Below the pieces are notes generated by a model, which saw nothing but the letters and a program-made list of their open reading frames with translations, was not told the origin of the DNA and made no database searches. Position numbers and translations under genes: made by a program. 64,000 nt of DNA from Planctomycetota bacterium (lineage in GTDB: Bacteria; Planctomycetota; Planctomycetia; Pirellulales; Lacipirellulaceae): contig JAJDED010000061.1 of NCBI GenBank assembly GCA_029259915.1, positions 1-64,000 of the forward strand, read 5' to 3'. This document shows, in pieces, positions 2,011-57,188 of this stretch. The stretch's first letter is position 1. Every line of letters starts with the position of its first letter.

Positions 2011-2147
2011 TTCTTCTATCCAGTCTTGCCCCTCAGCATCTAATCGAGATCGGTAAAGGACACCTTCATGCTTGCGAACCGTGGCAGATCACAAGAACAT
2101 TATACTCTTTGGCCGATGGCCGAGGGGATCGGAGTTTCCGAATGTGG

Positions 2148-2789
2148 CTAATCAGAATCGCCTTGCGGGATAACCTCGTCGCGTCCTTTGCCTATAATAT
2201 AGGCAGCCAGCGCTGCAAGACACATCCAAAGTGTATTCCATTCGGAAAAAGTATTTTTGAACTTCAGCCGCGAAATGGCGAGTGGCTCAACTTGTGTCGG
2301 CTTCTTCACAACCGGAGGAGCTTGCGGCAAGGCGACATCAACATCTTCCGCAGTGTCTTCCAGTGTACTCTCCGTTGCCTCGGGTTCAGATGCGACAGCA
2401 ACCTCTGAATCCTTGGGAACATCCGATTCTGCAGGAGGAGCTTGGTGCGGGGCGACTTCCGAATCTTCCGTAGTGATTACCGGCGCATCGGTTGTCTCAG
2501 GTTCAGGCGTGAGAAAAACCACCTTGGCATTTACAGCGTTTGCTTCCATCACTTTCACGTAGACTTGTCGCCCACCAACTATCGCCGCAAGAGCCAAAAC
2601 AACCGACAGGGCCCCCCGTGCAAAACTACCACCGGAGCCGGGACCTGCTGCGCGGTGGACGCAATACCCTGTGACGACTCCCACAACGCAAGACAGCCAA
2701 CCCAAATCCATCTGAGTGGTATACTCCAGCCCCAACCAGACCGCCGCCGCTATAGCGGCTCCGATGACTCCACTTAGAAATACACTCAT
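2148..2789 (-). CDS. Membrane protein with acidic Pro/Ala-rich linker, unknown function
   Basis: 213 residues if the ATG at 2789 is used. That start is preferred because the upstream 59 codons of the open frame overlap the preceding glucanase gene and do not look like protein. Two or three hydrophobic segments lie in residues 1-80. A long Glu/Pro/Ala/Thr-rich stretch follows (about 95-170, with repeated APP and SEV units), then a last hydrophobic segment (NTLWMCLAALAAYIIG) near the C-terminus. The start lies 20 bp after the GH16 gene on the same strand, so the two may be co-transcribed. No family is recognised; the layout suggests an inner-membrane protein with a flexible periplasmic spacer. 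Confidence 0.6.
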   Translation of the reverse strand: MSVFLSGVIGAAIAAAVWLGLEYTTQMDLGWLSCVVGVVTGYCVHRAAGPGSGGSFARGALSVVLALAAIVGGRQVYVKVMEANAVNAKVVFLTPEPETTDAPVITTEDSEVAPHQAPPAESDVPKDSEVAVASEPEATESTLEDTAEDVDVALPQAPPVVKKPTQVEPLAISRLKFKNTFSEWNTLWMCLAALAAYIIGKGRDEVIPQGDSD

Positions 2790-2808
2790 GGCAATAGGTT
2801 CCAATTGT

Positions 2809-4535: not shown

Positions 4536-5015
4536 CTAGCGACGTCCGCGCTTTGATTTGTTATCTGCCTCTAGCCCTTCTGACGACAGTTCGATGTTGA
4601 TGGTATTACTACCCTTCTCAACGTTAAACTGTAATCCGGAAGTCTTGGCGATGGCATAGTGCCTGGGTGTGATGTAGGGCCCTGGCATAGGGGGACCCCC
4701 GTTGGGATCCTCGGCACCTGGTTCACGCGAGGCAACAGTTACCAAGTAGTCTCCCACTTCAAGACCTTTCTCTCGATTGGTTTTGAGTGTGTAACTTCCA
4801 TCACTTTGGATGATCCCCGCTGCACGCATGCCGCCACCAGTCGGTGCGAAACCAACTGTCCCACGCTCCAAAGGTCCGCCATCCAGCGTCACTACGCCAG
4901 AAACTGACGCGGGCTTACCACCGCAGCCGACTAGAAATAGGAGCGTAAGCAATGTGCTCAGCTTGACTAGACCAAAACTAGAATTCCGTTCAAATTGCAT
5001 GCGTGTGAAACTCAT
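4536..5015 (-). CDS. Small lipoprotein with carboxypeptidase-regulatory-like (Ig) fold
   Basis: 159 residues from the ATG at 5015, chosen because GGAGG lies 9 bases upstream; an in-frame start at 5069 has no such site. A lipoprotein signal (LLFLVGC-GG) gives a lipid-modified Cys. The mature part begins PASVSGVVTLDGGPLERGTV, the signature of a widespread planctomycete lipoprotein family with a transthyretin-like fold, often encoded beside DUF1559 genes, as here. The C-terminus is basic (KSKRGRR). The function of the family is not established. Probably envelope-located. Confidence 0.8.
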   Translation of the reverse strand: MSFTRMQFERNSSFGLVKLSTLLTLLFLVGCGGKPASVSGVVTLDGGPLERGTVGFAPTGGGMRAAGIIQSDGSYTLKTNREKGLEVGDYLVTVASREPGAEDPNGGPPMPGPYITPRHYAIAKTSGLQFNVEKGSNTINIELSSEGLEADNKSKRGRR

Positions 5016-5108
5016 GAACTGTTGTCCTCCACTTTCTTGCCCGAAAAGGTGCCCTGATTCCGGCTTCACATACCGGTAAGCCTAGTGCTGGATTATGACA
5101 CCCCTCGG

Positions 5109-6173
5109 TTAGAAGTCGAGTCCTGCCACCTCTCCGCCATCCCTTGTTGAAAGGGCCCGGTAAATGTCGTGGTCGATGCCTTCGTTGAGGACCTGTACGG
5201 AAGCGTCAGCCATTGCGAATTGAACGACACCGGGATGAAGACTACGAAACCCTCGGACGTCGTACCAGTCTATTTTGACGTTCTCAAGATTGGGCATGAA
5301 ATAGTTCAATTGCATGTTGCAGCTGGCCCAATCGCCGTCGGAGAAGTAAGCCATACTGTGCAGATCTTGCTCGACAACCGATTCGCCAATCATCAGCGTG
5401 TTGCTCAAACCATCGGAAATTTGCCTAAAATTGATGGGATCGTAGTAGCCAAACTTCCAGAAAAGCCCGTTGCAGCCGAGGCTCTCAAAACGATCAGGGA
5501 TTGAGCCCCAATCCTCGTTACTCCACAAACCGCCTGCATCAAAAGCCTTTCCCACAGCCGTATCGCCCGCCACGCCTTTATAACTCGTCACAGCAACAGT
5601 TGCGCCCGTCCACCACCACATGTCGTCTCTTGGAACTGCTGAGGGATCGGATGGACATGTTAGTACAGACAACTGGTTATCCATAAACTCACGGACATCC
5701 ATCCGTCCCATGCCACTTCCGTTGTTTGCCCTAGCCAAAAAATCCATAATTTTTTTACTCGGATCGTCGAAGCCTAGCTTCATGCCGTCGTACATCGCTT
5801 GCTGCTCAAGCTGCGGCAAGATGTCGACAATCCACCCCTTGCCATTTCTGTTTCTTCCGCTCACATACTTCGAAGGTGAAGCTGGATCTTTACTACCGTC
5901 AGCCTGTAAATAATATTCTCCGCCGAAATTCGTGGACCAGTTGATGTCGAAGGGTAGATGTCTTTTGACATCGTGGTAATTGACGACGGCCAGGGCCACA
6001 TTCTTCATGTTGTTGCTGCATTGAATGCGCCTTGCCGCTTCGCGCGCGGCTTGCACGGCAGGCAGCAAAAGGGCTACCAGGACGCCGATGATGGCAATAA
6101 CCACCAGCAGTTCCACCAAAGTGAACGCGCTGAAAAGTTTTCGCCGTCGAGGAAGATTTCGCGATTCCTGCAT
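5109..6173 (-). CDS. DUF1559 protein with type II prepilin-like N-terminus
   Basis: 354 residues from the ATG at 6173, which has GGAG nine bases upstream; the frame could extend to 6248 but without a ribosome site. A short basic leader is followed by the prepilin segment F-TLVELLVVIAIIGVLVALLLPA, cut by prepilin peptidase before FTLVE. The DUF1559 body starts at VQAAREAARRIQCSNN and closes with the typical H-P-G-x-V-x-F-x-x-x-D-x-S-V (HPGVVQFAMADASV). Planctomycetes encode dozens to hundreds of these pseudopilin-like proteins of unknown role. The adjacent lipoprotein gene (4536-5015) is its usual companion. An intergenic gap of 93 bp between them allows co-transcription. Confidence 0.92.
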   Translation of the reverse strand: MQESRNLPRRRKLFSAFTLVELLVVIAIIGVLVALLLPAVQAAREAARRIQCSNNMKNVALAVVNYHDVKRHLPFDINWSTNFGGEYYLQADGSKDPASPSKYVSGRNRNGKGWIVDILPQLEQQAMYDGMKLGFDDPSKKIMDFLARANNGSGMGRMDVREFMDNQLSVLTCPSDPSAVPRDDMWWWTGATVAVTSYKGVAGDTAVGKAFDAGGLWSNEDWGSIPDRFESLGCNGLFWKFGYYDPINFRQISDGLSNTLMIGESVVEQDLHSMAYFSDGDWASCNMQLNYFMPNLENVKIDWYDVRGFRSLHPGVVQFAMADASVQVLNEGIDHDIYRALSTRDGGEVAGLDF

Positions 6174-6327
6174 TGGTAAAACTCCATGTTTTACGCCAGA
6201 TCTAAAGGCGTTGAGTACTTTTTTTGTGGCCAACTTTATTGCGAACAAAAGGGTAGAAAAAGATAGAAGGCAGCAAAGCCAGCGGACGGGAAATTCGCGG
6301 CTTTGCTGCTCTCTCAGGATCCAACAA

Positions 6328-7608
6328 CTAACGAATTTGCCTTCTCCTCTTCAAACAAACGAGCCCAATCAGTACCAACATCGCCGAGGAGGGTTCCGGT
6401 ACGTTGGTGACGGCGGCCGTTAGAGGAGTGGCGTACTGCGTCTGCCAAAAGCCCAGATCAGTAGCGTTAACAGCTCCGTCGAAGTTGGCATCGCCTTGGG
6501 TGGTCGCAGCACCGCTTAAAATCCCATTTCCACGTTGCCAAGCAAGGAAGTCGTCGCCATCGACGTCGCCATCGTTGTCGAAGTCGGCGGTGGGTACTTC
6601 ACTAAAAATCGGGTCGGGGTTGGTACCACCGGCCCCGGTTGTGATTGGGTTTGCATCAGCAGTCGCCTGATTGGCGAACACTTCGACCAATGCGTTATCA
6701 ATCCACAGGCTGCCTGAAGCAGCTCCACCGGCAAATTCGCCCCAGAACATAACGCTCCGAATCTCTTCAATATCGGCGACAGTATACACGTCGTCATCGA
6801 TGCCAAACCAAGCCGAATCGTCCACTGCGTACTCGACTTCAATCAAAGTCCACGCGGTATCGGTGATCGTGCGGATGCGTCCTTCCCCAGCGGCTGCGGC
6901 GTCGATAACCGAGCCGTTTCCATCGAGGTCAATCCAGATGCCTGCACCCCCATGCTGGTCAGTATCGAATACCTTATCAGCGAAAGTAGGCTGAAGACCG
7001 CCGGCGGTGTCCTGAAAAGTGCTGAGCCCTTCTTTCCAAAACTCAAACTTGAACACTGGCTCGATTTGGGGGGCACCTACGAAATTATTATTGGGATCTT
7101 CGCGAACCCACATCGAATATCGAATGACGTTGCCGTTATTCAAACCCACCCTTGGGTTGGGCGCACCCGTTACAGGACTTGGTGGGGTCGGGTTTGCTGG
7201 AGGAATGACGTTTCCGATACCCGCCCATAAGGAATGGGGAGCGGTCGCGTTATTCACGTCAGGATTCGACGTGTCGTTGGGTAGAATGAGTGTGTCGAAA
7301 GTCTCGGTATACCCATTTTCGCCATTGGAAAGTGGTATCGAAAGGCCAGCTCCGCCGTTGGTACCAAATTTGGTCTGTACTATGATGTCGTTGCCGTGAA
7401 AGGTGGCGATATCGTCTTGGCCAAAGCCGGCATCAAAAGCAAAAGCATCGCTTAAGCCGAACCCCAAGCCATCTGCGTTAATATCGGTATCGAGAGGGTT
7501 GACGGTCGCTGCGAGGCCGGTCGCTGGAAGCAACACTAATGCACCGCCAACTAGAGCGGCAGTCAGCAGATACTGAATCTGCCTTCGAATAGAAAGAATT
7601 CGAAACAT
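6328..7608 (-). CDS. Secreted dockerin-like/PEP-CTERM protein, unknown function
   Basis: 426 residues with a signal peptide (about 1-34, ending GLAA). GAGGAG lies upstream of the ATG at 7608. The body (35-330) is a beta-rich secreted domain with no recognised catalytic motif; it has a WTLIEVEYAVDD segment and repeated W-I-D pieces like those of jelly-roll carbohydrate-binding modules. Residues about 340-400 hold two calcium-binding dockerin-like repeats (DFDNDGDVDGDDFLAWQR and GDANFDGAVNATDLGFWQ), followed by the PEP-CTERM segment (VPEPSSAMLVLIG...KRRRQIR). Likely exported, sorted by an exosortase not in this window, and part of the polysaccharide locus. Confidence 0.75.
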   Translation of the reverse strand: MFRILSIRRQIQYLLTAALVGGALVLLPATGLAATVNPLDTDINADGLGFGLSDAFAFDAGFGQDDIATFHGNDIIVQTKFGTNGGAGLSIPLSNGENGYTETFDTLILPNDTSNPDVNNATAPHSLWAGIGNVIPPANPTPPSPVTGAPNPRVGLNNGNVIRYSMWVREDPNNNFVGAPQIEPVFKFEFWKEGLSTFQDTAGGLQPTFADKVFDTDQHGGAGIWIDLDGNGSVIDAAAAGEGRIRTITDTAWTLIEVEYAVDDSAWFGIDDDVYTVADIEEIRSVMFWGEFAGGAASGSLWIDNALVEVFANQATADANPITTGAGGTNPDPIFSEVPTADFDNDGDVDGDDFLAWQRGNGILSGAATTQGDANFDGAVNATDLGFWQTQYATPLTAAVTNVPEPSSAMLVLIGLVCLKRRRQIR

Positions 7609-22689: not shown

Positions 22690-23284
22690 GGGAAATGAAA
22701 TGTAAACTACATATCTGAAACCTTTCAACGGAACCTTGCGGGTGAGAAGCCCGCCCAGTAGAGCCTGACCAGCAACTGGAAGCGAGTCTTGCGTGGGGTC
22801 TAGGTAACCGGCACTGCGAAGCGTAGACAGCGAGTCCGAAAGCCATGCTATTGAGCGTCGAAAGACCCAATCGTGGGAGCCTTTGCCTTCTGATGACCAA
22901 GGGCCACGTTGCTGCACTACATGGTCTGGTGCAAGCAATCCTGCCGGCGTCGGTTTGGAACATGTGCAAACGAATTATTGAGGTTTCCCAGGAACTTGGG
23001 AGATCCTGTCGTCTCCTCGGCAATTCCCGGCGGGAGTACCGGGATACCAACTCCAGGCCTCAACGGTGCACTCGACCGATGAGGAGCGAACTCACGGGTG
23101 CAACCGAGGTACCGCCAAACGAAGGCAACGAAGTGTGGTGGGATGGGCGTCAGGAAGTCGTAGCGTTTTGATAGTACTGCTGAAGCTGGGGAACTCGCCC
23201 CGGAGGACCCAGTGGAGGGAAGCGAAACGTCGATCAACAGACTCGGTCGAGGGAAACGTGTCGAACACTTTGAGGTTCGATTAA
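22690..23284 (+). mobile_element. Probable group II intron remnant (5' RNA region and start of its RT reading frame)
   Basis: The stretch carries phrases I associate with bacterial group II intron RNA domains: GTGAGAAGCCCGCCCAGTAG with AGCCTGACC (22740-22775), and a run of short G-A-rich hairpins. Near its end, a frame reads LLKLGNSPRR followed by KRRSTDSVEGNVSNTL (about 23168-23275), resembling the N-terminal leader of intron reverse transcriptases (LLKPGNA... VEGNMSNT). It then stops at 23284, before any RT domain. No RT motif or domain V was found, so only the 5' part persists. The assignment is pattern memory; a covariance-model scan would decide. Confidence 0.45.
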
Positions 23285-44708: not shown

Positions 44709-47700
44709 CTATCCCGCTGGTGCAGCGACCACCGAATTGATCATTTCGTTGAACTTCTGTTCGACCTTGGCTTCAAAGTCGGATTCAATTTCATAGACTT
44801 CCGTAAACTCCGCAAAGTCCCAGCGACCGTGGGAGCCGAGATTGTTGACCCCTGGAACCCAATAAGTGTCCATCGTCGCTTTCTTTTCCTTGGCATCCTC
44901 GCGGCGATAGCCCTTTATTTCTACGACCAAGTGCAACAGGTCGTCATCACCGTGTCCGTCATCGATGAGAACAATAAAGTCGGGAATGTATTTTCGACTT
45001 TCAGAGCCATAGCGATAAGGAACCTCCAAGCCTAGGTTGTGGTTCTTTACGTATGCCTTCACGCTAGGATGAGCTTCGGCGACACGGCAAAATTCTCCTT
45101 CCCAATCGCTATCGAGCACGACCCAATTGATATGACAACGGCGGGAATCAGTTTCCCAGCGAAGCCTTTTCGAGGTGGTGAAGTTGACGTGCATGGTGGA
45201 GCCGAATGGATTGTATGGATCGAGGACTGCTTTGATTGGGCTCTCACCAATGAGATTGCTAACAATACCACGTGTGATCTTCTCACATGCCATATCCGCC
45301 AACTCCTGATACATGAGCTGTGCCGGATACGTGCCACCTTTGCAGACCAAGTAGTTGTCGAGCCACTGCTTCGTGATTCGCTTGAGCTGTCCGAACAGGT
45401 GAAGCTTGGCATCTTCGCCAGGATCGCGCCATTTGGTGTAAAGCAATCGCTTTGCGACATGAAATAACAGTGTCGAGCGACGCATATCGCCCAAGTGTTC
45501 CAGGCTGAGATCGACATCTTCGCCGATGATACCGGCATTCTTCGTAATGGATGGACCCACTAGATCGGGATTGAGTTCCAACACGGAGTCATCATCATTG
45601 AATTTCGCTTCGAGTCGTTCCTCGGGGAGTTCCACGCGATAGCCTTCGACACGCGGAAACTTAATTTCTAATTCATCGCGGTCAGGGCGGACTGCTTTTA
45701 CTTGGACGGTTTCACGGGGCGGTTGCGGGGGCGCGACGACGGGCTTGGCTGTGAAGTCAAACGGGATACCGAGTATGTCAGCATATTCGACATTGAAAAG
45801 ATTGTCGTCATTAAGGTCATACGATTGCCGCCGGAGGGCGCGACCAATCACTTGTTCGCATAAGAGCTGTGTGCCAAATGCTCGCACTCCCAAGACATGT
45901 GTTACCGTGTTGGCATCCCACCCTTCGGTGAGCATCGACACAGAAACAACGCAGCGAATCGCCTCGCCAAGTCGGCCTTGTTTGCCGACGGTGTTCATCA
46001 CTTCTCGCAAAAGGTCTTGGTCAGAAATGTTTTCTGCCTGACGAAGGTCACCCGTCCGCTCCACAATCTCGCGACGAAAGCGTTCAATTTCATCGGACGC
46101 CATCGCTCGAAACTTATCGTCCAGAGCGTCACCCGATTCGAGTTGTTCGCTATCAATCAGCAGCGTGTTGGGACGACCCAGGGGATTGCCATGCTCATCG
46201 AAATTACGAAAGAGCGGCAACCGACCATTCTCAAGCGTCGTCGAGCCGTCTTCGTTCTCGCGATGAAATCCCGAAACGAAATCGTAGACAAGTTTCGACG
46301 TAGAAGTGTTGTTGCAGACGACAATGAAGCACGGCGGCACCTTGATGCCGCTTTCTTCCCAAAGCTGGTGCGTTTTTGCGTAGTGGCCATAGAGTGCTTC
46401 GAGGGCTGTCTGTAATTCAACCGGCAGACTCAGCGGATCGAGAACGCTCGCCTTTCCTCTCCCCTTCTTGGGCATCTTCTTGCCAATGTGTTCCCACAAG
46501 TTGCGAAACTTTGGCATATCTTCGCCGGGGATGTTGTCGGCGACAGGAACACGAGGAAGCTTGACGATGCCACACTCGATAGCATCCATGAGCGAGAAGT
46601 CGCTCATCGTCCATGGAAACAACGTGCCTTCGGCATAGCCGGAACCACGTAAGAAAAACGGCGTCGCAGACAAATCGATGATATGATTCGTCCCCAGCTT
46701 TCGGCGAACCGTTTCCAGACCGGAAATCCAAAGCCTTGCGGCCTCACGATTCTTTTCGGCTTCCTTCTTATCGTCACCCTTGAGATCGGCGTCTTCTTCG
46801 CTGTTGGGCTTTTCGCGGTAGCAATGGTGGGCCTCATCGTTGAGGACCATAATATTCTTCATGCCCATCAGGTCGGGCACGACTCGCTGGAGCATTTGCC
46901 CTTCGGTTTCCAGCGTATTCAGGTCTTCACCACGACCCTGGAGCAAGGAACGCCCTCCTTTGGAGAGGTCTATTCGCTCACGCAGTTTGAACGCGTGGTA
47001 GTTGGTGATGACAATCTTCGCCCGGTCTAGGTCGGCTACCATATCTCCCGGCACGAGTTCACGACTCTGGTAATAACTGTCGGGGTCGTTTGGTTGCAGC
47101 ACTCGGAGCCTGTCACGAATAGTCAGTCCCGGTGCAACAATGAGAAAACCGCGAGTGAACTTCTTGCTGTTGGGGCGACGCACCGAATTGACCGTTTGCC
47201 AAGCGATGAGCATTGCCATCACAGTGGTTTTACCGGCACCTGTGGCGAGCTTGAGAGCAAGCCTCAGCAGTTCAGGATTCGCTTGCTCATTGGATTTGAC
47301 TAGATGGTCGAGAAATTTCTTGCCTGATTTGGATTTCGAGGCAACCTCAATCAACCAAATTGCTGTTTCGACTGCTTCCACCTGACAGAAGAACGGACGG
47401 ATGCTGCTAAACTTATGGTGCCGCCAGTGTTGCAGGAGGCGTGCGGTTTCAGGAGTGACTTGCCAATCATTGGGATTTGGCCAGTTTCGCCATTGGTTCA
47501 CATGTTGGCGAACCTCGTTGAGTATCGATGTTGGGTCGTATTGCTGTTCCTGCGTGGAGATCCCCAATCCCTCGTCGAAGACAATGTCTTGTTGCTGCTC
47601 GGTTTTTGACTTTCGCTTCTTTGGCTTAGGAATCGGTGTGATGAAATCAGCGTGACGACGCTGCTCGACAATGTTTTGCGTCGGTTGGCCGCTGGCATCG

Positions 47701-47771
47701 AGTTCCCAATGGCGAGCAGGATACTCGTACGGAGAATTGAGGATGGGCTGTTCAAAGAATCTGTTTTCCAT
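44709..47771 (-). CDS. res: Type III-like restriction subunit (Res, SF2 helicase-nuclease)
   Basis: 1020 residues. SF2 helicase motifs: Walker A LATGAGKTTVMAMLIAW (near 175), motif II NDEAHHCYREKP (near 315), IIDLSATPFF, VSVSMLTEGWDANTVTHVLG and the arginine-finger motif QVIGRALRRQSY. A PD-(D/E)xK nuclease closes the protein: IPDFIVLIDDG ... LHLVVEIKGYR (about 950-975). This is the domain order of type III Res. The start lies 9 bp after the small HTH gene and the end 22 bp before mod. ATP-driven movement and cleavage of unmodified DNA are expected. Confidence 0.92.
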   Translation of the reverse strand: MENRFFEQPILNSPYEYPARHWELDASGQPTQNIVEQRRHADFITPIPKPKKRKSKTEQQQDIVFDEGLGISTQEQQYDPTSILNEVRQHVNQWRNWPNPNDWQVTPETARLLQHWRHHKFSSIRPFFCQVEAVETAIWLIEVASKSKSGKKFLDHLVKSNEQANPELLRLALKLATGAGKTTVMAMLIAWQTVNSVRRPNSKKFTRGFLIVAPGLTIRDRLRVLQPNDPDSYYQSRELVPGDMVADLDRAKIVITNYHAFKLRERIDLSKGGRSLLQGRGEDLNTLETEGQMLQRVVPDLMGMKNIMVLNDEAHHCYREKPNSEEDADLKGDDKKEAEKNREAARLWISGLETVRRKLGTNHIIDLSATPFFLRGSGYAEGTLFPWTMSDFSLMDAIECGIVKLPRVPVADNIPGEDMPKFRNLWEHIGKKMPKKGRGKASVLDPLSLPVELQTALEALYGHYAKTHQLWEESGIKVPPCFIVVCNNTSTSKLVYDFVSGFHRENEDGSTTLENGRLPLFRNFDEHGNPLGRPNTLLIDSEQLESGDALDDKFRAMASDEIERFRREIVERTGDLRQAENISDQDLLREVMNTVGKQGRLGEAIRCVVSVSMLTEGWDANTVTHVLGVRAFGTQLLCEQVIGRALRRQSYDLNDDNLFNVEYADILGIPFDFTAKPVVAPPQPPRETVQVKAVRPDRDELEIKFPRVEGYRVELPEERLEAKFNDDDSVLELNPDLVGPSITKNAGIIGEDVDLSLEHLGDMRRSTLLFHVAKRLLYTKWRDPGEDAKLHLFGQLKRITKQWLDNYLVCKGGTYPAQLMYQELADMACEKITRGIVSNLIGESPIKAVLDPYNPFGSTMHVNFTTSKRLRWETDSRRCHINWVVLDSDWEGEFCRVAEAHPSVKAYVKNHNLGLEVPYRYGSESRKYIPDFIVLIDDGHGDDDLLHLVVEIKGYRREDAKEKKATMDTYWVPGVNNLGSHGRWDFAEFTEVYEIESDFEAKVEQKFNEMINSVVAAPAG

Positions 47772-47780
47772 CGAGTTTCC

Positions 47781-48008
47781 TTAGCCCTTCCGTTTCTTTC
47801 TAACTTGCTTTCGGTCGGCCAATTTAGGCCGCTCCAAACGCCGTAGGAGTTTGAGTAGGTCAGCCCGTCGGTAAAGCCGGTAGTTGTTCAGCGGATGACG
47901 ATATTCGGGTAGCTTTCCTTCCCGTCCCCAATTACGGATTGTGTTTGGCGAACAGCCGATCAATTCGGCTGCCTCTTTCACGAGTAGATAAGTCTCTTGG
48001 CCACTCAT
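47781..48008 (-). CDS. Small HTH_17/excisionase-type DNA-binding protein
   Basis: 75 residues. YLLVKEAAELIGCSPNTIRNWGREGKL followed by YRLYRRADLLKLL is the helix-turn-helix plus wing of excisionase/MerR-like proteins; the tail is very basic (RPKLADRKQVRKKRKG). It heads the restriction operon, 9 bp before res, a position suited to an autoregulator that delays nuclease expression until methylation is established. In many restriction modules of this kind a small HTH protein precedes the nuclease genes. Confidence 0.85.
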   Translation of the reverse strand: MSGQETYLLVKEAAELIGCSPNTIRNWGREGKLPEYRHPLNNYRLYRRADLLKLLRRLERPKLADRKQVRKKRKG

Positions 48009-48254
48009 GGACGCTCGTCTTTTCCGTTGGTCCCACAGGCTGCAAACATTACCAAATGAGAAGCCCTAAGACTACCGTTTGATAGGCGGCGGAGAAAGTA
48101 CCTACTCCCGGCTTCAGGGTAGTTTTTATCGCTGAATTTGCCATTGAAGCTCAAGTTTGTCGTTGAGTCTGACTTTGCTTCCCTCAGATTCCGTTGTTTC
48201 GCCCCCAAGCCAAGGGTGAGGGGCAAACCAATGAAACCTTCGGAGAGAATCAAG
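48009..48254. other. Promoter region of the restriction operon
   Basis: About 245 bp between the divergent genes at 48008 and 48255. It contains loosely paired segments (ACTACC/GGTAGT around 48071-48123; CTCAA/TTGAG at about 48150-48168; CCCTC/GAGGG at about 48182-48223). It should hold the operon promoter and the site of the HTH protein. Confidence 0.35.
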
Positions 48255-48428
48255 ATGAATCAGCAACAACATTCCATCGAGTCAACGAGACCAAGCCAAC
48301 TCGCACCGCAAGATCGCGAGAAGCAGGAACATCAAGAACAGACTCAAGAAGAAATGCTTGCCGCTTACATTGAGCAACAGCAAAGAATGTGCTGCCCCGG
48401 TTGTGGTGAAGGTGCTCAGATTTATTGA
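48255..48428 (+). CDS. Small Gln/Glu-rich protein with a C-terminal Cys cluster
   Basis: 57 residues from the ATG at 48255 with GGAGAG upstream. It is hydrophilic and helical (QDREKQEHQEQTQEEMLAAYI) and ends with MCCPGCGEGAQIY, where three Cys could bind a metal with a partner. No family is recognised. It lies between the divergent restriction operon and the convergent rhuM gene, 22 bp from the latter's stop. It could be an accessory or antitoxin-like peptide, but nothing in the sequence proves this. Confidence 0.45.
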   Translation: MNQQQHSIESTRPSQLAPQDREKQEHQEQTQEEMLAAYIEQQQRMCCPGCGEGAQIY

Positions 48429-48450
48429 GTAATTCTATCAGCAACAGAGC

Positions 48451-49524
48451 CTATTCTTCCTGGCCCTTATCTTCGTCATCCTGTTGCTGGTCTTTCTTCT
48501 CTTTCTCAATTCGCTTCAACTCATCAAGCGACTGCTCGAAGTGTTTATCAACCGGACGTGGCAAAGCGTCTTGCTGCAACCGAAACTGCTCGTATTCGGC
48601 TTCTGCTTTTTCCTTCGCCGTGTCATGCGAGATTCTGCCTGCATGGTCGAGAAGTTCACGGTCGCTGAGACGCAGAAAGTCGTCGAGTTTTTCGATCCAG
48701 TCATTCATCGACATCGCCTTGCGGTTCATTGCTTGTAGCTCCGCAAATTCGAGATATGCGGTCACGATGCGATTAAGGGCTTCCAGTTCTTGCTCTTGCA
48801 GGTAGTTCTTTCCGACGGTGACATCCGTCTTACGAGGCTTGTCGCCACTGAACGAAGTGAGTCCCATGTTTGGCTGCGAAGCATCGGTTCGCTTGTGTAC
48901 GATCTCGGCTGCGGTGTGGCCGTGAGCGGCCCAGTGCATTTTGTTTTGAACTGTTTTGAAGAAGAGCGTGGAAGACTCGACTGCCGGGTCGTAATCGATA
49001 CTGGTAGCGTAGATGTCGAGCACCTTTCGCCAGAAAACACGTTCGGACGAACGGATGTCACGGATGCGCGCGAGTAATTCCTCAAAGTATTGCCCACCCC
49101 CGGCCTGCTTGAGCCGGGCATCATCCATCGCAAAGCCTTTGACGAGATATTCCCGCAAGCGTTCAGTTGCCCAGATGCGAAATTGGCTCCCTCGTTGCGA
49201 GCGGACGCGGTAGCCAACAGCAAGGATGGCATCAAGGTTGTAATGCGAAACCTCGCGAGTAACCTGCCTGGAGCCTTCTGATTGAACTATCCGGAATTTC
49301 CGGAGAGTTGCCTCGCGACTCTGCTCCCCCTCGCTAAAGATATTGACGAGATGCTCGTTGATCGTCTTTACGGAGACCTGAAAAAGGTCGGCTAAATGCT
49401 TCTGAGTCAGCCAGATTGATTCCTCCTGCAAGCGGCATTCAATACGTGTCTGCCCATCTTCGGTCTGGTAGAGCAGAAATTCGCCTTCGGGCGGTTGTTC
49501 AGCGGGCAGGTTATCTTCGCTCAT
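48451..49524 (-). CDS. rhuM: RhuM-family protein
   Basis: 357 residues. The N-terminal third matches RhuM/virulence-related proteins: GEFLLYQTEDGQTRIECRLQ, ESIWLTQKHLADLFQVSVKTINEHL (helix-turn-helix-like) and REVSHYNLDAILAVGYRVRSQRGSQFRIWATE in part. The rest is helical, with DYDPAVESSTLFFKTVQNKMHWAAHGHTAAE, and an acidic tail rich in Lys, Glu and Gln. RhuM was first noted on a Salmonella pathogenicity island; homologues often sit beside restriction genes and toxins on islands, as here, and their biochemical role is unknown. AAGG precedes the ATG. Confidence 0.9.
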   Translation of the reverse strand: MSEDNLPAEQPPEGEFLLYQTEDGQTRIECRLQEESIWLTQKHLADLFQVSVKTINEHLVNIFSEGEQSREATLRKFRIVQSEGSRQVTREVSHYNLDAILAVGYRVRSQRGSQFRIWATERLREYLVKGFAMDDARLKQAGGGQYFEELLARIRDIRSSERVFWRKVLDIYATSIDYDPAVESSTLFFKTVQNKMHWAAHGHTAAEIVHKRTDASQPNMGLTSFSGDKPRKTDVTVGKNYLQEQELEALNRIVTAYLEFAELQAMNRKAMSMNDWIEKLDDFLRLSDRELLDHAGRISHDTAKEKAEAEYEQFRLQQDALPRPVDKHFEQSLDELKRIEKEKKDQQQDDEDKGQEE

Positions 49525-49837: not shown

Positions 49838-50779
49838 CTACGCTGCAAACACTCGCACAGGACGGAGCCGAGTAGGAACGAACTCCCTCGGCACGCGGTC
49901 CTTGATTCCAGAGCGTCGCCGCTTTTGGTTGACCTGTTTGTGAATCGAGTAGAGCTGTCTCAAGAGGGGTTTGTATGGCTCAAAGCCAATTTCATAAAAC
50001 ATCATGCCAAGCTGCTCGGCTGAACGCTTCGTCGAAAGCTCCAGAAATGTTGCCTTCAACTTGCGGTAGGCTTCGGGGTGTAATTCGACATGGGAGTGCC
50101 ACTTCGGGTCGATCTCCCCTTTTCGGGTCAGTCCGCCCGGCTTGTAGCTAATCGAGTAACCACCTACTCGTAACGGTGCGTATGGAAACTTTCCCGTGTA
50201 GCCAGTGCGTTTCTCAAAGTCGCGAGGCGGCTTACGGATGCAACGCAGGTTTGCCGCTTCGGATTCCCAAATTGGTGAGTGCCCAAGTGTCGTGAACAGG
50301 AAAAACCGTCGCCCAAGGCGATAGTAGCGAGTATTTGCCAAGCCTTGCAGTTTGCGTCGGTAGCGGCAACTCTCCGATAGATTCGCCGCGTACTTGTCCA
50401 TCAGTCGCCGGTCAATATCGCCAGGGTCTTTGTGTTCGGGGATGACTCCCGACACATACCACCAGTAACCCCAGCGAATCGTATGCACGGCAATCTGCTT
50501 CACCAGTGCGGTTAACGAACTGATTTCGCAAACCGCTTGCCGTTTTCGACGTACTGGCGAAAATAATGTTGAGGGGGAGCCGGAATACAAAACCGGCTTT
50601 CCCCCCGGAAGAAAAACCTGTGTGGAAGGTGGGCATGCGGTGGCTCTTGAGCTGCTGCTGCCCGCTTTCCTTGCGTGCAGTGCAGCACTCGCATCGTGCG
50701 AGACAAGGACACCTGGTGCCTTTTGATTTTGCGAAACCATATTCATATTGATAGCTACGCTAACCATATTCCCCTTCAC
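49838..50779 (-). CDS. Conserved-type planctomycete mobile-element protein, unknown function (start uncertain)
   Basis: The frame is open for 313 codons, but the first 85 or so overlap the hairpin chain and are low-complexity. Protein-like sequence starts near 50515 (TALVKQIAVHTIRWGYWWYVSGVIP), so a GTG at 50503 or a nearby codon may be the true start. The body (DPGDIDRRLMDKYAANLSESCRYRRKLQGLANTRYYRLGRR, then GYSISY and KWHSHVEL) recurs in my memory of planctomycete plasmid- or island-borne proteins. A role in replication or DNA nicking is conceivable given its place near repA, and the WHSHVEL stretch contains spaced His, but no HUH motif is evident. Function not assigned. Confidence 0.6.
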   Translation of the reverse strand: MKGNMVSVAINMNMVSQNQKAPGVLVSHDASAALHARKAGSSSSRATACPPSTQVFLPGGKPVLYSGSPSTLFSPVRRKRQAVCEISSLTALVKQIAVHTIRWGYWWYVSGVIPEHKDPGDIDRRLMDKYAANLSESCRYRRKLQGLANTRYYRLGRRFFLFTTLGHSPIWESEAANLRCIRKPPRDFEKRTGYTGKFPYAPLRVGGYSISYKPGGLTRKGEIDPKWHSHVELHPEAYRKLKATFLELSTKRSAEQLGMMFYEIGFEPYKPLLRQLYSIHKQVNQKRRRSGIKDRVPREFVPTRLRPVRVFAA

Positions 50780-52041
50780 TACGTGAACATCGACAAAGAC
50801 CTTCGCGTGCTTTGCACGCTCGACTTTGCCATCAATTCAGCCGTCATTTTTAGAAGGCCCTCCCGAGCCCTTTAAGAATGACCAGCAACCAATCACGGAT
50901 CCGCCACGGCGGACACGCAACAACAAGCAAAATTATTGGAGCCTCCTAACTCCCCTCTCGGTCAGGTCTTTCGTCGTCGTGACGGTTTGGCGACTAACCA
51001 AACCCGAACGGCTCAGGACTGCCTTGCCCTGCACGTTGCAACGGCAACGTGTTGTCTCCTTCGAGACAAAGCACGCCATCGCTTGGAAGCAAGCGACGCT
51101 ACCTACTTGACCCACACTCCCCTCGTGCAGCTTTTCAAACATCCAGGCTGCCAAGCCTAGACACCGGGAACTAACTCCGGCAGCAACACGAGTTCCTGCG
51201 TTAGCAGTCGTCATCATTTGTGTGGTCACGTCTCTAGCGGGTGTTACCCCACAGACACCGCAACCGTATGTGCAATCTTCCGATTGCCATAGTTTCCGAA
51301 AGACGAGCTTTCGATTTCTGCAAACCGAACATGGAAGCATTTGCTTACCCTCCGGTCACGGGTTTTCGAAATTTGGCTCCGTCTCCACACAAACTAACTG
51401 GCTGCCCTCACGGGCTTTCAGGGTTGAGCTATTCACGGCCAAGCATTTAACTTGGTCCCCGAGGCGGCTAAACCTCGACTACTGTTGTCACCAACAGCAG
51501 GCTCCCCCTAGCCAGCCAGGTTAAACGGCCTCAATGAGAGCCGAATCCCCTGGACGGGATTTGCGGACAATTGATTCCATGTCCACTCACCCGCTTTGAA
51601 CAACTGCGGCTTTGAACGTTGAAAACCAACAATCAAAGTTTTTCCGCATCGCCCCCGCTCTCTGTTCAAGTAAACGCCTCGCGTTTACTCAAGAGCATCG
51701 GGTAGAATGTCGGGATTACTCTTCACGGGACTGCGATACAAATGCAGTGATCCCACGAAGGATTACTCCGACAAGCCCCCGTCGAGCTGAGCAAGCTAGT
51801 CTCCCAGCACTCAGCTCTACCGAGCAACGACATCAGGGATAGTAAACTCCCTGCCCTTAGCTTGAGTAGTCAACTCAAGTTTACCGGGCGTCGCCGATTG
51901 CTTGTTGGCGTCTAAGAGCGAGCAGCGTTGGAATCAGCGAACAATGCGATTCAACAACTCCGCTTGGCATCTTTGACGACACACCCTGACTACCCGTGTC
52001 AGGGTCTATCTTTGGCGGTACCGTACGTTATGAAAACGTAC
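50528..52041. ncRNA. Giant hairpin chain (about thirty stem-loops over 1.5 kb): candidate ornate non-coding RNA
   Basis: Perfect or near-perfect stems follow one another: TTTTCG/CGAAAA (50543-50563), AGCCGG/CCGGCT (50578-50598), CTCGCA/TGCGAG (50688-50702), TTCAC/GTGAA (50775-50787), GCGTGC/GCACGC (50805-50819), TCCGCC/GGCGGA (50900-50913), GGTTTGG/CCAAACC (50984-51004), CACGTTGC/GCAACGTG (51032-51051), TTGTCTC/GAGACAA (51052-51069), TCGCTTG/CAAGCGA (51079-51096), GCAATC/GATTGC (51272-51287), CGAAAG/CTTTCG (51297-51313), CGAGG/CCTCG (51460-51477), CTGTTG/CAACAG (51482-51497), AATCCC/GGGATT (51544-51561), nested TGCGG-CTTTG-GTTG (51605-51648), AGTAAACGC (51669-51689), ACTGC/GCAGT inside GGGAT/ATCCC (51712-51754), GAGCTGAG/CTCAGCTC (51784-51817), CAGGGA/TCCCTG (51834-51853), CTTGAGT/ACTCAAG (51861-51879), ACCCTGAC/GTCAGGGT (51983-52005), GTACGTT/AACGTAC (52023-52041). 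No frame codes. Strand unresolved; a DNA role is possible. Confidence 0.5.
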
Positions 52042-52099
52042 AACGGCCTTTCTTCATGTGAGTTAAAGTTACGGGCGATGCCGTAGGGGATGTTTTGAA

Positions 52100-53167
52100 T
52101 CAACGCTGAGTGAAGCGTCGTAGAGCTTTGCTAGTTTCAAACACTCGGCTTGCTGTGGGAACGACATCTTCAAATCGCCCATTGCGATAGACGCGATGTT
52201 CTGGCCGCAGTTGACGGACACTTCCTTTCCCTGCTCCCGCAGTACGCTTTGGTTGGCGATGTGCTTGTCCCAGCTTGAACGTTACATCCCAAAGACCTCG
52301 GCAGCCTTCCTTCTTTACAAATTGTTCAGCTTCCTCCATTGGCTCCAGATACTTTATTTCGGCTAGCTCGTTTATGGCTTTGGAGAGATTTCTGCGGATT
52401 TGGGCCGCATCGTAGCTGCGACTCATCCCCAGACGTTCGTACGCCAGAGTTCTCAAGTCATACTTGAGGGTGGTTCGCATGGGTGGATTGAAATTCTTAT
52501 CGAGCAGCCGGTATAGCCTGAGAGAAAGCGGTTTGAGCCGCATGGCAATGTTCAGGTCGAGGCGTTTGAGATATCCCGAATCAAAGGATTCAAACAGCAC
52601 CGAGCCCCAGCGAAATTCCGACAAATATTCTCGGAAATCACGATCACCCTTTTTTCTGCTATCCCGAAAACGATAGTAGTCGAGAATGGCAATATTCTCA
52701 GTGACGCGGCGATATTCTTTGGTGCGATTATCTCGCCAGTAGTTCACACATTTCAGCCGGACGCCCGCCAGTTGGTCCAGGCATCGGGTGAGCCGATGGT
52801 AGGACGAATCCTTGTTAGGCCACTTGAGTGTCTTAAGCATTTCGCCGCGAGAGAAAAACACCTGCGGGTCCGAAAAGTTATTGTAGGCCCGTGTGTGGTG
52901 TAGGAGAGCGAGCCATACCTTCTCCGCCGCCGCTGCCGGGATACCATACTTGGCACTGCCGGTGACAGTCACCTGACGGCGAACGACTTGCTTGAGATTG
53001 CGGTCGAAATCCTCAACCTCGAACTCCAGCACGTTAAGTCCTGCCGGTGCCCGCGAAGACAACAGAAACACGGGCAGTTCGACGAGATTCATTTCGTCTC
53101 GTCCGTTGCCCAAGTCAGCGAGGAATTCCCTCGCCTCAGCTTCCGTTCTTTTTACAGCGGTATTCAA
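52100..53167 (-). CDS. repA: Plasmid-type replication initiator protein (RepA-like)
   Basis: 355 residues if the TTG at 53167 is used (GAGAGGG close upstream); an ATG at residue 26 is an alternative. The opening MNLVELPVFLLSSRAP, then GIPAAAAEKVWLALLHHT, FFSRGEMLKTLKWPNKDSSYHRLTRCL and EFRWGSVLFESFDSGYLKRLD, SLRLYRLLDKNF are the conserved order of the replication initiator protein A family, two winged helices that bind iterons. Six direct repeats (53267-53393) and a DnaA box (53677-53685) just upstream confirm the role. A 7-bp palindrome at 53189-53211 next to the start may be its autoregulatory operator. It implies that the island replicates as a plasmid after excision. Confidence 0.9.
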   Translation of the reverse strand: MNTAVKRTEAEAREFLADLGNGRDEMNLVELPVFLLSSRAPAGLNVLEFEVEDFDRNLKQVVRRQVTVTGSAKYGIPAAAAEKVWLALLHHTRAYNNFSDPQVFFSRGEMLKTLKWPNKDSSYHRLTRCLDQLAGVRLKCVNYWRDNRTKEYRRVTENIAILDYYRFRDSRKKGDRDFREYLSEFRWGSVLFESFDSGYLKRLDLNIAMRLKPLSLRLYRLLDKNFNPPMRTTLKYDLRTLAYERLGMSRSYDAAQIRRNLSKAINELAEIKYLEPMEEAEQFVKKEGCRGLWDVTFKLGQAHRQPKRTAGAGKGSVRQLRPEHRVYRNGRFEDVVPTASRVFETSKALRRFTQR

Positions 53168-53211: not shown

Positions 53212-53266
53212 TACCTTGTAGCGGTCGAAAATCGTGAACAAAAGCAACGCGTTGCCCAAGCTTTCC

Positions 53267-53393
53267 TGTTTCAAATGGCGTGGTTCCAATGTTTCGTTTG
53301 GCGTAACTCCCTGTCTCAATTGGCGTAGCTGCCTGTTTCAGTTGGCGTGCAATCGCTGCTTCGAATGGCGTATGGGCTGTTTCAATTGGCGTA
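53267..53393. repeat. oriV: Six iterons of the replication origin
   Basis: Six 16-bp direct repeats of consensus TGTTTCAATTGGCGTA begin at 53267, 53290, 53312, 53334, 53357 and 53378, spaced 21-23 bp, two helical turns. The GGCGT end is invariant. A diverged inverted copy lies at 53521-53536. They stand 100 bp upstream of repA, the classic layout of an iteron-controlled plasmid origin. Confidence 0.88.
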
Positions 53394-53570
53394 TGCACCA
53401 TCCCTGGTAAGCTGATGCTGCGATGAAGTTGCTGTATAGCTGACATAGAGAGTTTGTTACTTCAATTTGCTTGAACAAAACCACGTTACTGGTACACCCT
53501 GGGACTGGCAACAAGAAACGTACGCCAATCGGTACAGACTTCTTTCCGCCCTCAATCAGTTCTCTATTGC

Positions 53571-53685
53571 CATATTGCAAGCTTGCCAGCCTGCAATATG
53601 ACAACCAAGCTGCCCACCTTGCTTGCTAGATGGAAAGCTTGCCAACCAGCAAGCCAGAAATATTGCTTGCCAGCCTTGTGGATAA
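53571..53685. promoter_or_regulatory. Partition/origin control region: 9-bp inverted repeat, GCTTGCC repeats, DnaA box
   Basis: CATATTGCA (53571-53579) and TGCAATATG (53592-53600) form a perfect inverted repeat around AGCTTGCCAGCC. The unit GCTTGCCA recurs at 53581, 53637 and 53665. A perfect DnaA-box match (TGTGGATAA) lies at 53677-53685. Directly upstream of parA, these repeats could be the operator and centromere bound by the ribbon-helix-helix protein encoded at 54399. Confidence 0.5.
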
Positions 53686-53704
53686 CCTTGTACCTTTGGC
53701 AGCG

Positions 53705-54409
53705 ATGATCTTCGCAACCGCAAATTCAAAGGGGGGAGTAGGGAAGACGACCGTATCAGTTCATCTGGCGGGTTGGTTTCACTTGCATGGAATGAAAGTC
53801 GTCCTGGTGGACTGTGACCCCCAGCAGCAAGCCGCCGGTTGGTTAAGTGAGGCGGTTCCGGAAATCGACATCGAGTGTCATACCGACCCGACCAAAATTA
53901 TCGACGAACTTCCCAAGCTACTCAAGTCGTATCAAGTTGTGGTGGCGGACGGTTCCGCCAAGCTCGATGAAGTAAGCCGTGCCTTGTTGCTTGTCGCTGA
54001 TGCCGTGTTTGTGCCGTGCAAGGCCGGTGGCTTAGAGGCGAGGGCGCTCACCTTGGCGACGAACGTGATTCGGCAAGTGAAAGAAATCCGCAAAGGACTT
54101 CCCCAGGCAGTAACGCTGCTGACTCAAGTGCAAGAACGCTATGTGCTTACCGGGGATATGGCCGAAGCCGCCGAAGAGATTGGCTTTCCCGTGCTCGACC
54201 AAAAACTGAGTCTCAGCCAGGTCTATGCCCAGGCACCGACCGATGGCAAACTTCTTTGGCAAATGGGCTCACGGGCTAAGAAGCACGCTCTGGAAGTCGA
54301 CGCCGTGTTTCGCCAGACACTCCCTGCCGTGCTTGATGACAGCGGAATAAGTGAAGTCCAGAAACTTTATCAACGACCGAAGAAGCAAAAGAAAAGACAT
54401 GCCGCGTAG
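53705..54409 (+). CDS. parA: ParA-type partition ATPase
   Basis: 234 residues from the ATG at 53705; an in-frame ATG at 53630 would start inside the GCTTGCC repeats and adds sequence unlike ParA. The deviant Walker A SKGGVGKTTVSVHLA lies at residues 8-22, with VVLVDCDPQQQAAGW (Walker A') at 34-48 and VVVADGSA later. The short N-terminus without a helix-turn-helix is that of type Ib ParA, which pairs with a small ribbon-helix-helix protein; just such a gene overlaps its end. It should segregate the excised element and may also stabilise it. Confidence 0.92.
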   Translation: MIFATANSKGGVGKTTVSVHLAGWFHLHGMKVVLVDCDPQQQAAGWLSEAVPEIDIECHTDPTKIIDELPKLLKSYQVVVADGSAKLDEVSRALLLVADAVFVPCKAGGLEARALTLATNVIRQVKEIRKGLPQAVTLLTQVQERYVLTGDMAEAAEEIGFPVLDQKLSLSQVYAQAPTDGKLLWQMGSRAKKHALEVDAVFRQTLPAVLDDSGISEVQKLYQRPKKQKKRHAA

Positions 54410-55676: not shown

Positions 55677-56939
55677 TCAAGCCCCAATCGGTATCGTGGC
55701 GGCGAACGGTTGCTTACCGTTTGGAGAACCGAAGACAGACTCCAGAGCCGCGTGCTGCTGGTCGGGGAACAAGTGTCGGTATCTCCGTCGCATCTCTTCG
55801 GTTTGATGCCCCATCCACTCGTCGATAATCCGCTGGTCGATGCCAGCGGCAGCCAAGTTGGACGCAAAGCTGTGCCGGAAGACATGAAACCCTCGCACCT
55901 TCTCCCAGCAACTCTTTCGCATGGGACTCTCGAAACATCGCTCGACTGTGGTCTTAGTGAGGCAAGTTCGAGCAGTCTCGCAAAATGCAAACGGACCGCC
56001 TGGATGAATCAATTTCCACTCACGAATTGTTTCGCATAGCCGCCCAGACATTGGCACATGACGAAACGTCGTCGCCTTATAGCGACTCTTTTTCTTCTCG
56101 CGAATGATGAAGACTCGCCGCGACAAGTCAAAATCCTCCAGTAGTGCCCGCATGAGTTCGCTCCGTCGGGCACCCGTATGGGCAACACTTACTAGCAGCG
56201 GATAGCTCACCACATAAGGAGCATGAGTTTGCACATGGTCGAGTAACTCGTCGATTTGGTTTCGGTCCAAAAACAGTGCTGCCCACAATTCTTTTTCTTC
56301 TTCGGCGGTGACGCTACGCTGAATGATGGCTGCTTCGATTTGTGACCACGTCATAAACGGCGGTTTTTGGTCAACCTTGGGATAAACGAGCTTGCGAGTG
56401 GGGAGGGGAGTCGCAATGTGTTCCGCCTCGATGCCCCAGTTCCAGATGAGTCTGAGCGTAGTGATCTCTTTGCGGACGGTGGCGGGCTGAATCAGTTTCT
56501 TGCGATGCCGTTCGGAGAGACGGGCATTGACGTAATCTTGCAACACCGTGTGCTTGACGGTTTTCAGCGAGCGGCGACTCTTGAGAAGTCGCAAGAGATG
56601 CCCGCGATGGATTCGCTCGCCTTCCAGCGTCGAATCTTCCTTGGCACCCGGCGGCAGCGACTCGTCGTAGGCACAGAACAACTGGGCGAGCGTGCAAACC
56701 GTCGAACGATTCTTTACGGCTATAGGCTTGCCGTCCGCCAGCAAAAAAGTCGCGGCGTCTTGGTCGGCGGGAATCTCTAGTCGGCCCATTTCCACGAGCC
56801 GAATGGTTTCGCTCAGCCGGGCGAGGCGGCTGTTGGCTTCGGTGAGGCTCCGCGTCTTGAGCGAACGTTTTACGCGTTCGCCCGCAAAGCGAAAGTGGAC
56901 GTGAAAAATCCCGTTGGGATACTGTTGGAGAGACGCCAT
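55677..56939 (-). CDS. int: Tyrosine recombinase/integrase of island 2
   Basis: 420 residues; GAGGT precedes the ATG. The N-terminal part has an arm-binding-like segment (YPNGIFHVHFRFAGERVKRSL) and a SAM-like core-binding domain (about 80-180). Catalytic residues: Arg in HTGARRSELM (258/259), Lys in the beta-hairpin near 282-288, His352-x-x-Arg355 in FHVFRHSFASNLA, His378 in MGHQTEE and the nucleophile Tyr387 in RRRYRHLF. It is encoded 163 bp from the tRNA-Leu it targets and is transcribed away from it, as usual for tRNA-directed integrases. The GTCACC pairs at 57024 and the other ends are candidate arm sites. Confidence 0.95.
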   Translation of the reverse strand: MASLQQYPNGIFHVHFRFAGERVKRSLKTRSLTEANSRLARLSETIRLVEMGRLEIPADQDAATFLLADGKPIAVKNRSTVCTLAQLFCAYDESLPPGAKEDSTLEGERIHRGHLLRLLKSRRSLKTVKHTVLQDYVNARLSERHRKKLIQPATVRKEITTLRLIWNWGIEAEHIATPLPTRKLVYPKVDQKPPFMTWSQIEAAIIQRSVTAEEEKELWAALFLDRNQIDELLDHVQTHAPYVVSYPLLVSVAHTGARRSELMRALLEDFDLSRRVFIIREKKKSRYKATTFRHVPMSGRLCETIREWKLIHPGGPFAFCETARTCLTKTTVERCFESPMRKSCWEKVRGFHVFRHSFASNLAAAGIDQRIIDEWMGHQTEEMRRRYRHLFPDQQHAALESVFGSPNGKQPFAATIPIGA

Positions 56940-57023
56940 CGTGACCTCGGCAAGTGCGAGTGCATCGTAGGAGTCCGCACGCCAGGGGGGCTAGCGATAC
57001 GAACCCAACGCACTTGCCGCGTT

Positions 57024-57040
57024 GTCACCGATTTGTCACC
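57024..57040. repeat. Arm-type site pair at right end of island 2
   Basis: GTCACC at 57024-57029 and 57035-57040, 11 bp apart, between the integrase start and the tRNA. Same spacing as at 19794, 25470 and 25748. Confidence 0.6.
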
Positions 57041-57102
57041 AATGGGTTTTTGGGAAGATTGAAGTCTGTTTGGGCAATCGACGTAAGTCGTTACGTAGTA
57101 AG

Positions 57103-57188
57103 TAGCCGAGGCGGGACTCGAACCCGCACGGGGGTTACCCCCCACTGGATTTTAAGTCCAGAGCGTCTGCCAATTCCGCCACTCGGCC
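57103..57188 (-). tRNA. tRNA-Leu (anticodon UAA), island attachment site
   Basis: 86 nt on the minus strand. Acceptor GGCCGAG pairs with CTCGGCT (terminal G-U); D arm GCGGAATTGGCAGACGC; anticodon stem CTGGA/TCCAG around CTTAAAA with anticodon TAA; long variable arm (GGGGG/CCCCC); T arm GCGGGTTCGAGTCCCGC. The class II length and variable arm fit Leu. CCA is not encoded. The 3' half was brought by the element and the 5' half is chromosomal, since the old 3' half remains at 19617-19670. Confidence 0.93.

Follow-up and report, generated by a model that had tools for sequence, protein, structure and literature searches.

A hairpin-rich interval between acpG and repA in planctomycete DNA is very probably a circularly permuted group II ribozyme

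Circularly permuted (CP) group II ribozymes (T-large RNA) have been described from Thermus pTT8, Polaromonas pPNAP05 and Comamonas (Roth et al. 2021, PMC8637638), with a 3′ splice site of the form NU, a 5′ splice site GGGCG and predicted circles of 15–86 nt. That paper prints the pPNAP05 circle as 32 nt, places the pPNAP05 RNA near the plasmid origin and reports that this RNA is expressed, with processing not seen in cells; in pTT8, nearly the whole ribozyme could be deleted without a significant effect on replication, and a chromosomal copy might complement. According to the same paper, CP group II ribozymes are without a known role, and no homology of the associated protein AcpG with any known protein class was detected; the string 'planctomycet' is absent from its main text. 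Among titles and abstract starts in the open literature (most subscription journals being outside this scope), it was the only paper found on natural CP group II introns. In this report, we describe an interval of the window (the whole 64,000-nt stretch of DNA analysed) that is, with high confidence, a circularly permuted group II ribozyme with an AcpG partner gene. Our analysis establishes the parts of this element, their order, their conservation and covariation, and their linkage to acpG. The parts and neighbours are as follows.

51897–52040, minus strand: hairpins of the 5′ flank, in a P1-like position, with clear likeness in one close relative
51825–51896, minus strand: 5′ module (P2-like) with covarying helices
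51873–51866, minus strand: P2 hairpin loop, pairing with 51000–50989 (pseudoknot)
51819–51824, minus strand: D4 closing helix, 3′ strand, pairing with 50962–50957 (helix 6)
51784–51817, minus strand: domain 5, 34 nt, with AGC triad, UU bulge and GAGA loop (Rfam RF00029)
51697–51781, minus strand: domain 6 with conserved internal loop and branch-point A at 51703
51697, minus strand: 3′ splice site, after AU
51655–51696, minus strand: predicted 42-nt circular RNA ("exons"), with a stem-loop and ending in the 6 nt of IBS1
51649–51654, minus strand: 5′ splice site GGGCGA, where the D1 side begins, invariant in 35/35
51195–51651, minus strand: domain 1, closing helix 51651–51645 with 51200–51195; helices 11–38
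51327–51332, minus strand: EBS1 (AUGUUC), pairing with IBS1 (0/2000 shuffles)
51122–51192, minus strand: domain 2, numbered by position; helices 39–42
51114–51121, minus strand: J2/3-like stretch, with GGGAG unchanged across the alignment
50964–51113, minus strand: domain 3, numbering by this analysis; helices 43–49
50957–50962, minus strand: D4 closing helix, 5′ strand
50768–50956, minus strand: structured leader from ribozyme to acpG, hairpins alike in two close relatives
49838–50767, minus strand: acpG, predicted RT/maturase-like fold without catalytic DD
52100–53167, minus strand: repA, replication initiator (RPA family; PF10134, E 3.7e-8), directly upstream
53630–54409, plus strand: parA-like ATPase (PF13614, E 5.2e-17)

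In a normal group II intron, D1–D4 lie upstream of D5; here, the distance from D5 to the end of repA (52100) is only about 280 nt. The RF00029 match spans all 77 model positions (51819–51697, minus), and neither a match to the Rfam D1–D4 families nor an RT-sized ORF was found within the element.

The interval had attracted attention as a chain of hairpins, and the comparison of folding energy with dinucleotide shuffles that the original prediction had proposed revealed surplus stability in 50500–52199 on both strands. Eight 300-nt segments from 50500 to 52199 gave z values of -1.2 to -6.2, with z ≤ -2.6 in 15 of 16 values, and the plus-strand RNA of 50528–51500 folded with z -5.98; other segments tested lay mostly between -2.1 and +1.6, the exceptions in the flanks being 50300–50599 (minus, z -2.5) and 53500–53799 (minus, z -3.5). 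This surplus on both strands and the adjoining repA and parA genes would suit single-strand-folded DNA used in replication or transfer (an origin or oriT), one of the two readings first offered, but the group II hallmarks and the covariation argue against it: splice sites, branch point and IBS–EBS pairing are conserved on one strand. In addition, the deletion of nearly the whole pTT8 ribozyme without significant replication effect, with its chromosomal-copy caveat (PMC8637638), points away from folded DNA, and we give this reading practically no weight. The strand, at first regarded as open, can be assigned, as it is the minus strand that carries group II domains 5–6 and the conserved features. 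The arm sequences are unrelated because the arms are different helices of a single RNA. The element also contains a described motif where none had been recognised, namely RF00029 (51819–51697, minus; 45.4 bits, gathering score 40); in an Rfam scan of the element only group II D5–D6 reached a gathering score, and GOLLD, ROOL and the other Rfam large RNAs did not. The supposed lack of a coding frame does not apply to 50528–50767, which we read as the 5′ part of acpG: the gene starts at ATG 50767–50765, preceded by GAAGGGG, and its N-terminus from 50767 is common to one close relative (L052). No promoter above chance was found for the element.

The consensus structure was obtained with RNAalifold from 35 full-length homologues and comprises 257 pairs in 49 helices, with standard pairs in 91.5% of its cells. 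Changes on both sides were observed in 1978 cells, compared with 584.6 in shuffles, and 206 pairs show such changes; the covariation score was 0.604, compared with 0.198 (sd 0.004) when shuffled and at most 0.125 when slid, numbers that overstate the case in that the structure was derived from the alignment on which it was scored and the shuffles ignore relatedness, while the margin is still very large. Covariation in homologues, another of the proposed checks, lies far above shuffles and strongly supports the prediction of a large, structured non-coding RNA belonging to a mobile element; this RNA is not new as a class, its class almost certainly being that of the CP group II ribozymes. Of the hairpins described across the whole interval, the covarying core (51896–50957) is borne out, and the sides were compared in two close relatives only, the 3′ side hairpins being alike in both and the 5′ side hairpins clearly alike in one. 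Within the core, bases just 5′ of D5 pair with bases just 3′ of D3 (helix 6, the D4 closing helix), with 97.6% of cells paired and five of six pairs changed on both sides. Helix 6 joins both ends of the RNA; in our reading, the two ends together close the D4 stem, and the permutation opens D4, so that the element corresponds to a group II intron opened inside D4. When the P2 loop was compared with all columns, the best window was the loop at 51000–50989 (5.00 versus 4.33, 0/2000 shuffles), this partner, like the EBS1 loop, having been picked on the same alignment used for its test. It falls in D3 by our numbering, whereas the CP paper names D2, and pairing of P2 with the two loops that we numbered D2 gave no signal.

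If a canonical group II intron had decayed or been fused, so that D5–D6 was left over amid unrelated structured sequence, this would explain why Rfam detects D5–D6 alone, and a canonical group II intron RNA does match elsewhere in the window (22745–22959, plus strand; Rfam group-II-D1D4-6, 100 bits). However, D5–D6 precedes the D1–D4 profile on the same strand in all 35 full-length elements, this permuted order is accompanied by covariation throughout, an RT-size ORF is absent from the element and the splice-site bases are invariant; a remnant is thus very unlikely.

The permuted ribozyme is further characterized by its conserved splicing signals. The branch A and the D5 bulge (UU or UC, that is, UN) are conserved in 35 of 35 homologues and the AGC triad in 33 of 35, and the linker from D6 to D1 is bounded in all 35 by AU (3′ splice site) and GGGCGA (5′ splice site), so delimiting a predicted circle of 16–59 nt across homologues and 42 nt in the window. 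IBS1, the last six linker bases, pairs with a D1 loop at a mean of 4.07 of 6 positions versus 3.48 when shuffled (0/2000); this holds for a single offset among eight, and the second-best reached 47/2000. Applied to pPNAP05, with the D6 end placed by eye, the same linker rule gives 32 nt, the value in PMC8637638. A 5′ splice site at GGTGAG (51590) was our first choice and showed no consistent IBS–EBS signal; the site was moved to 51654 because of the helix 11 structure and the published GGGCG.

By known group II chemistry, a minus-strand transcript would fold as P2-D5-D6-linker-D1-D2-D3 with its ends pairing as the D4 stem, and A51703 in D6 would attack the 5′ splice site (51655/51654). The freed 3′ end would then attack the 3′ splice site (51697/51696), releasing 42 nt of RNA as a circle; what is left would be a T-shaped branched RNA, with a D1–D4 arm that could extend into the acpG message. 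We infer that the ribozyme is transcribed and catalytic, with AcpG binding the RNA as its maturase. A copy that is inactive in this genome would recall pPNAP05, with its expressed RNA and processing not seen in cells (PMC8637638), yet the window copy retains the invariant catalytic positions and could form five of six IBS1–EBS1 pairs (two of them G-U), and we regard inactivity as unlikely.

Homologues were found mainly in planctomycete records. A blastn search with the element matched 24 of 147 genomes, a count that includes its own genome, and in several of them the matches were colinear and broke off where D6 ends on its 3′ side. Of the 147, 32 were hit by a covariance model built on the D2 region, and RF00029 at its gathering score matched only five of eight relatives scanned. 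A pattern derived from D6 identified 28 stretches in a collection of 84,980 species genomes, and the element was confirmed by profile in 24 of them, the four misses being Pelagibacteraceae records. Among these 24, of which two are duplicates or near-duplicates of others and most are MAGs, the record labels name planctomycete groups in 18 cases, "bacterium" only in two, and Bdellovibrionales, Competibacteraceae, Contendobacter odensis and Hydrogenedentes once each. The D6 pattern had 0 matches in viral contigs, and blastn of plasmids with the window element gave none. In one relative (L021, the G006 element), the D5–D6 profile match is interrupted by about 80 extra bases.

The sequence of the element has diverged from the published CP members beyond profile detection, pTT8 and pPNAP05 giving no significant match to the nhmmer profiles or to model R1. 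When added to the alignment, pTT8 matched 102 of 165 columns (95% conserved; shuffle mean 83.7, maximum 93) and pPNAP05 matched 113 of 165 (mean 88.2, maximum 102; 24 shuffles each), and on the opposite strand of pTT8 the column matches did not exceed their own shuffles.

We then consider the gene at 49838. In 36 of 38 loci, a profile search in all frames detected a homologue near the element, and all 36 homologues lay downstream of it in the same orientation; the RNAs of the two other loci (L057, L060) match only the first part of D1–D4. RNA and AcpG were also searched separately over the same 147 genomes. Of 42 RNA places, 40 had an AcpG match in the same orientation within the next 1.5 kb downstream, the two exceptions being G066:C154, at a contig edge, and G008:C28; on the other strand, no match lay within 2.5 kb. 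All 32 RNA-positive genomes were also AcpG-positive (Fisher p 1e-26, without correction for kinship). AcpG matches alone occurred in six more genomes, four of them short or weak and two (G035 and G045) covering most of the profile, and 11 of 51 AcpG places lacked an upstream RNA match. In a forward test, AcpG matches in six plasmid records led to pK2D_1, one Calothrix record and one of four Leptolyngbya records, and in all three a CP RNA precedes AcpG in the same orientation. A second, partial CP RNA lies about 2 kb before the full unit on Calothrix plasmid5 (L073, 588–1004), with no AcpG-like gene directly behind it.

On sequence-profile evidence the gene at 49838 is AcpG, because it matches five Thermus AcpG proteins by hhalign (Prob 94, E 1e-7, 167–170 columns; reversed-profile control, Prob 0.4) and is positioned beside a CP RNA; on pTT8, TTHC007 (the Thermus AcpG) was recognised from its place and size. 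Single-sequence BLAST and our first profile gave nothing between the two groups. Pfam, NCBIfam and PHROGs hold no family for the window AcpG; over 35 AcpG members, Pfam gave chance-level matches only (best E 0.062), PDB sequences gave only a designed protein (E 0.039), none of 20 pattern matches in viral contigs was confirmed and none was found in phages.

At 40 of 42 places the RNA precedes acpG in the same orientation, and structure continues to the start codon, as would also be expected of a 5′ leader that mainly controls acpG expression, with splicing incidental. Conservation is, however, centred on the splice sites and catalytic core, and the stretch 3′ of D4 is not alignable across the 35 homologues; we hold such a leader to be a minority possibility, and the least improbable of the alternatives.

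Structure prediction suggests that AcpG takes an RT palm–thumb fold, RT/maturase-like and without an active site. The predicted fold aligns to group II RTs over 158–203 residues and to spliceosome chains, which we take to be Prp8, over about 200 residues; in a second Foldseek list, only the first three matches were RTs, followed by unrelated proteins, and a viral fold library gave nothing below E 0.001. AcpG thus resembles group II RT/maturases and Prp8 in predicted fold and differs from them in lacking YxDD, in having hardly any acidic residues in the strand resembling motif A and in its core of about 230 residues without a significant sequence match. Against a group II RT/maturase profile hhalign was not significant (Prob 0.6, E 0.089), and Thermus AcpG gave no signal with RT profiles. 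The catalytic DD is present in 0/35 AcpG members; in 16 of these, the YxDD turn holds one D or E. On balance, we lean towards a model whereby AcpG represents a reduced group II RT/maturase that has lost catalysis, as a bacterial counterpart of spliceosomal Prp8, and has remained with the permuted ribozyme, RNA and AcpG forming one conserved, often plasmid-borne RNP; we think that the two act as one RNP.

Two relatives of the element carry a canonical group II intron inside D5 of the CP RNA: L052 (G008:C114, of the window's genus; 1363–3773, 2411 nt) and L048 (Gemmataceae; 4886–7287, 2402 nt). Both introns have GTGCG...AC ends and ORFs with RVT_1, maturase and HNH domains, and their insertion point is identical, after D5 base 20, the outer parts of 20 and 14 nt adding up to a 34-nt D5. 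The inner intron would have to leave before the outer ribozyme could fold. The intron/D5 junction pattern was found in 0 of 392 sampled genomes of the phylum, and a profile search showed no CP RNA in the surroundings of a third RT gene of this kind (L076).

The location next to plasmid-type genes was correctly noted at the outset: RepA and ParA genes adjoin, and the arrangement recurs in relatives, with a RepA or ParA homologue within the fetched stretch at 12 of 20 wide-flank loci, a count without a chance control. A RepA search of genome contigs found nothing. We do not claim a replication role for the RNA, because deletion of nearly the whole pTT8 ribozyme had no significant replication effect, subject to the chromosomal-copy caveat. 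Several near-repeats of the type TTTCAATTGGCGTA, read by eye, occur between repA and parA (53265–53400) and look like plasmid-origin iterons. A tyrosine integrase gene lies near a tRNA gene (57103–57188, minus) within 55677–57188, possibly an integration site, and a ResIII/RE_endonuc (type III restriction-like) protein and a RhuM-family protein are encoded downstream of acpG (44709–49524).

The intron-encoded proteins of group II introns belong just after D4. If our model of AcpG is true, the missing intron-encoded protein of CP introns has always been next to them, in this very position; AcpG would be a second case, besides Prp8, of a group II maturase without reverse transcription yet with a splicing partner, and AcpG–CP RNA would be a tractable bacterial counterpart of Prp8. 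AcpG, which had been without known relatives, gains a testable identity as a putative dead RT/maturase. The class of CP ribozymes is extended to Planctomycetota and Cyanobacteria, and the RNA and AcpG usually move together as a unit in this branch.

Compared with the CP ribozymes of Roth et al. (2021), the elements described here have the same order D5-D6-linker-D1-D2-D3, the 5′ splice site GGGCG and 3′ splice site NU, the UN bulge in D5, the D6 internal loop, IBS1–EBS1 pairing, a circle within 15–86 nt and no internal RT gene, and often have plasmid replication genes near and AcpG nearby. In contrast, their hosts are mostly Planctomycetota, with Cyanobacteria and a few others, the P2 loop partner is in D3 by our numbering, and AcpG, where near the RNA, is always directly downstream on the same strand, whereas the 2021 paper describes variable orientation and frequent absence. 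With canonical group II introns (RF00029 and the D1D4 families), the element shares the same domains, catalytic triad and branch A, but here D5–D6 come first, the splice sites are reversed and internal, and no intron-encoded RT lies inside.
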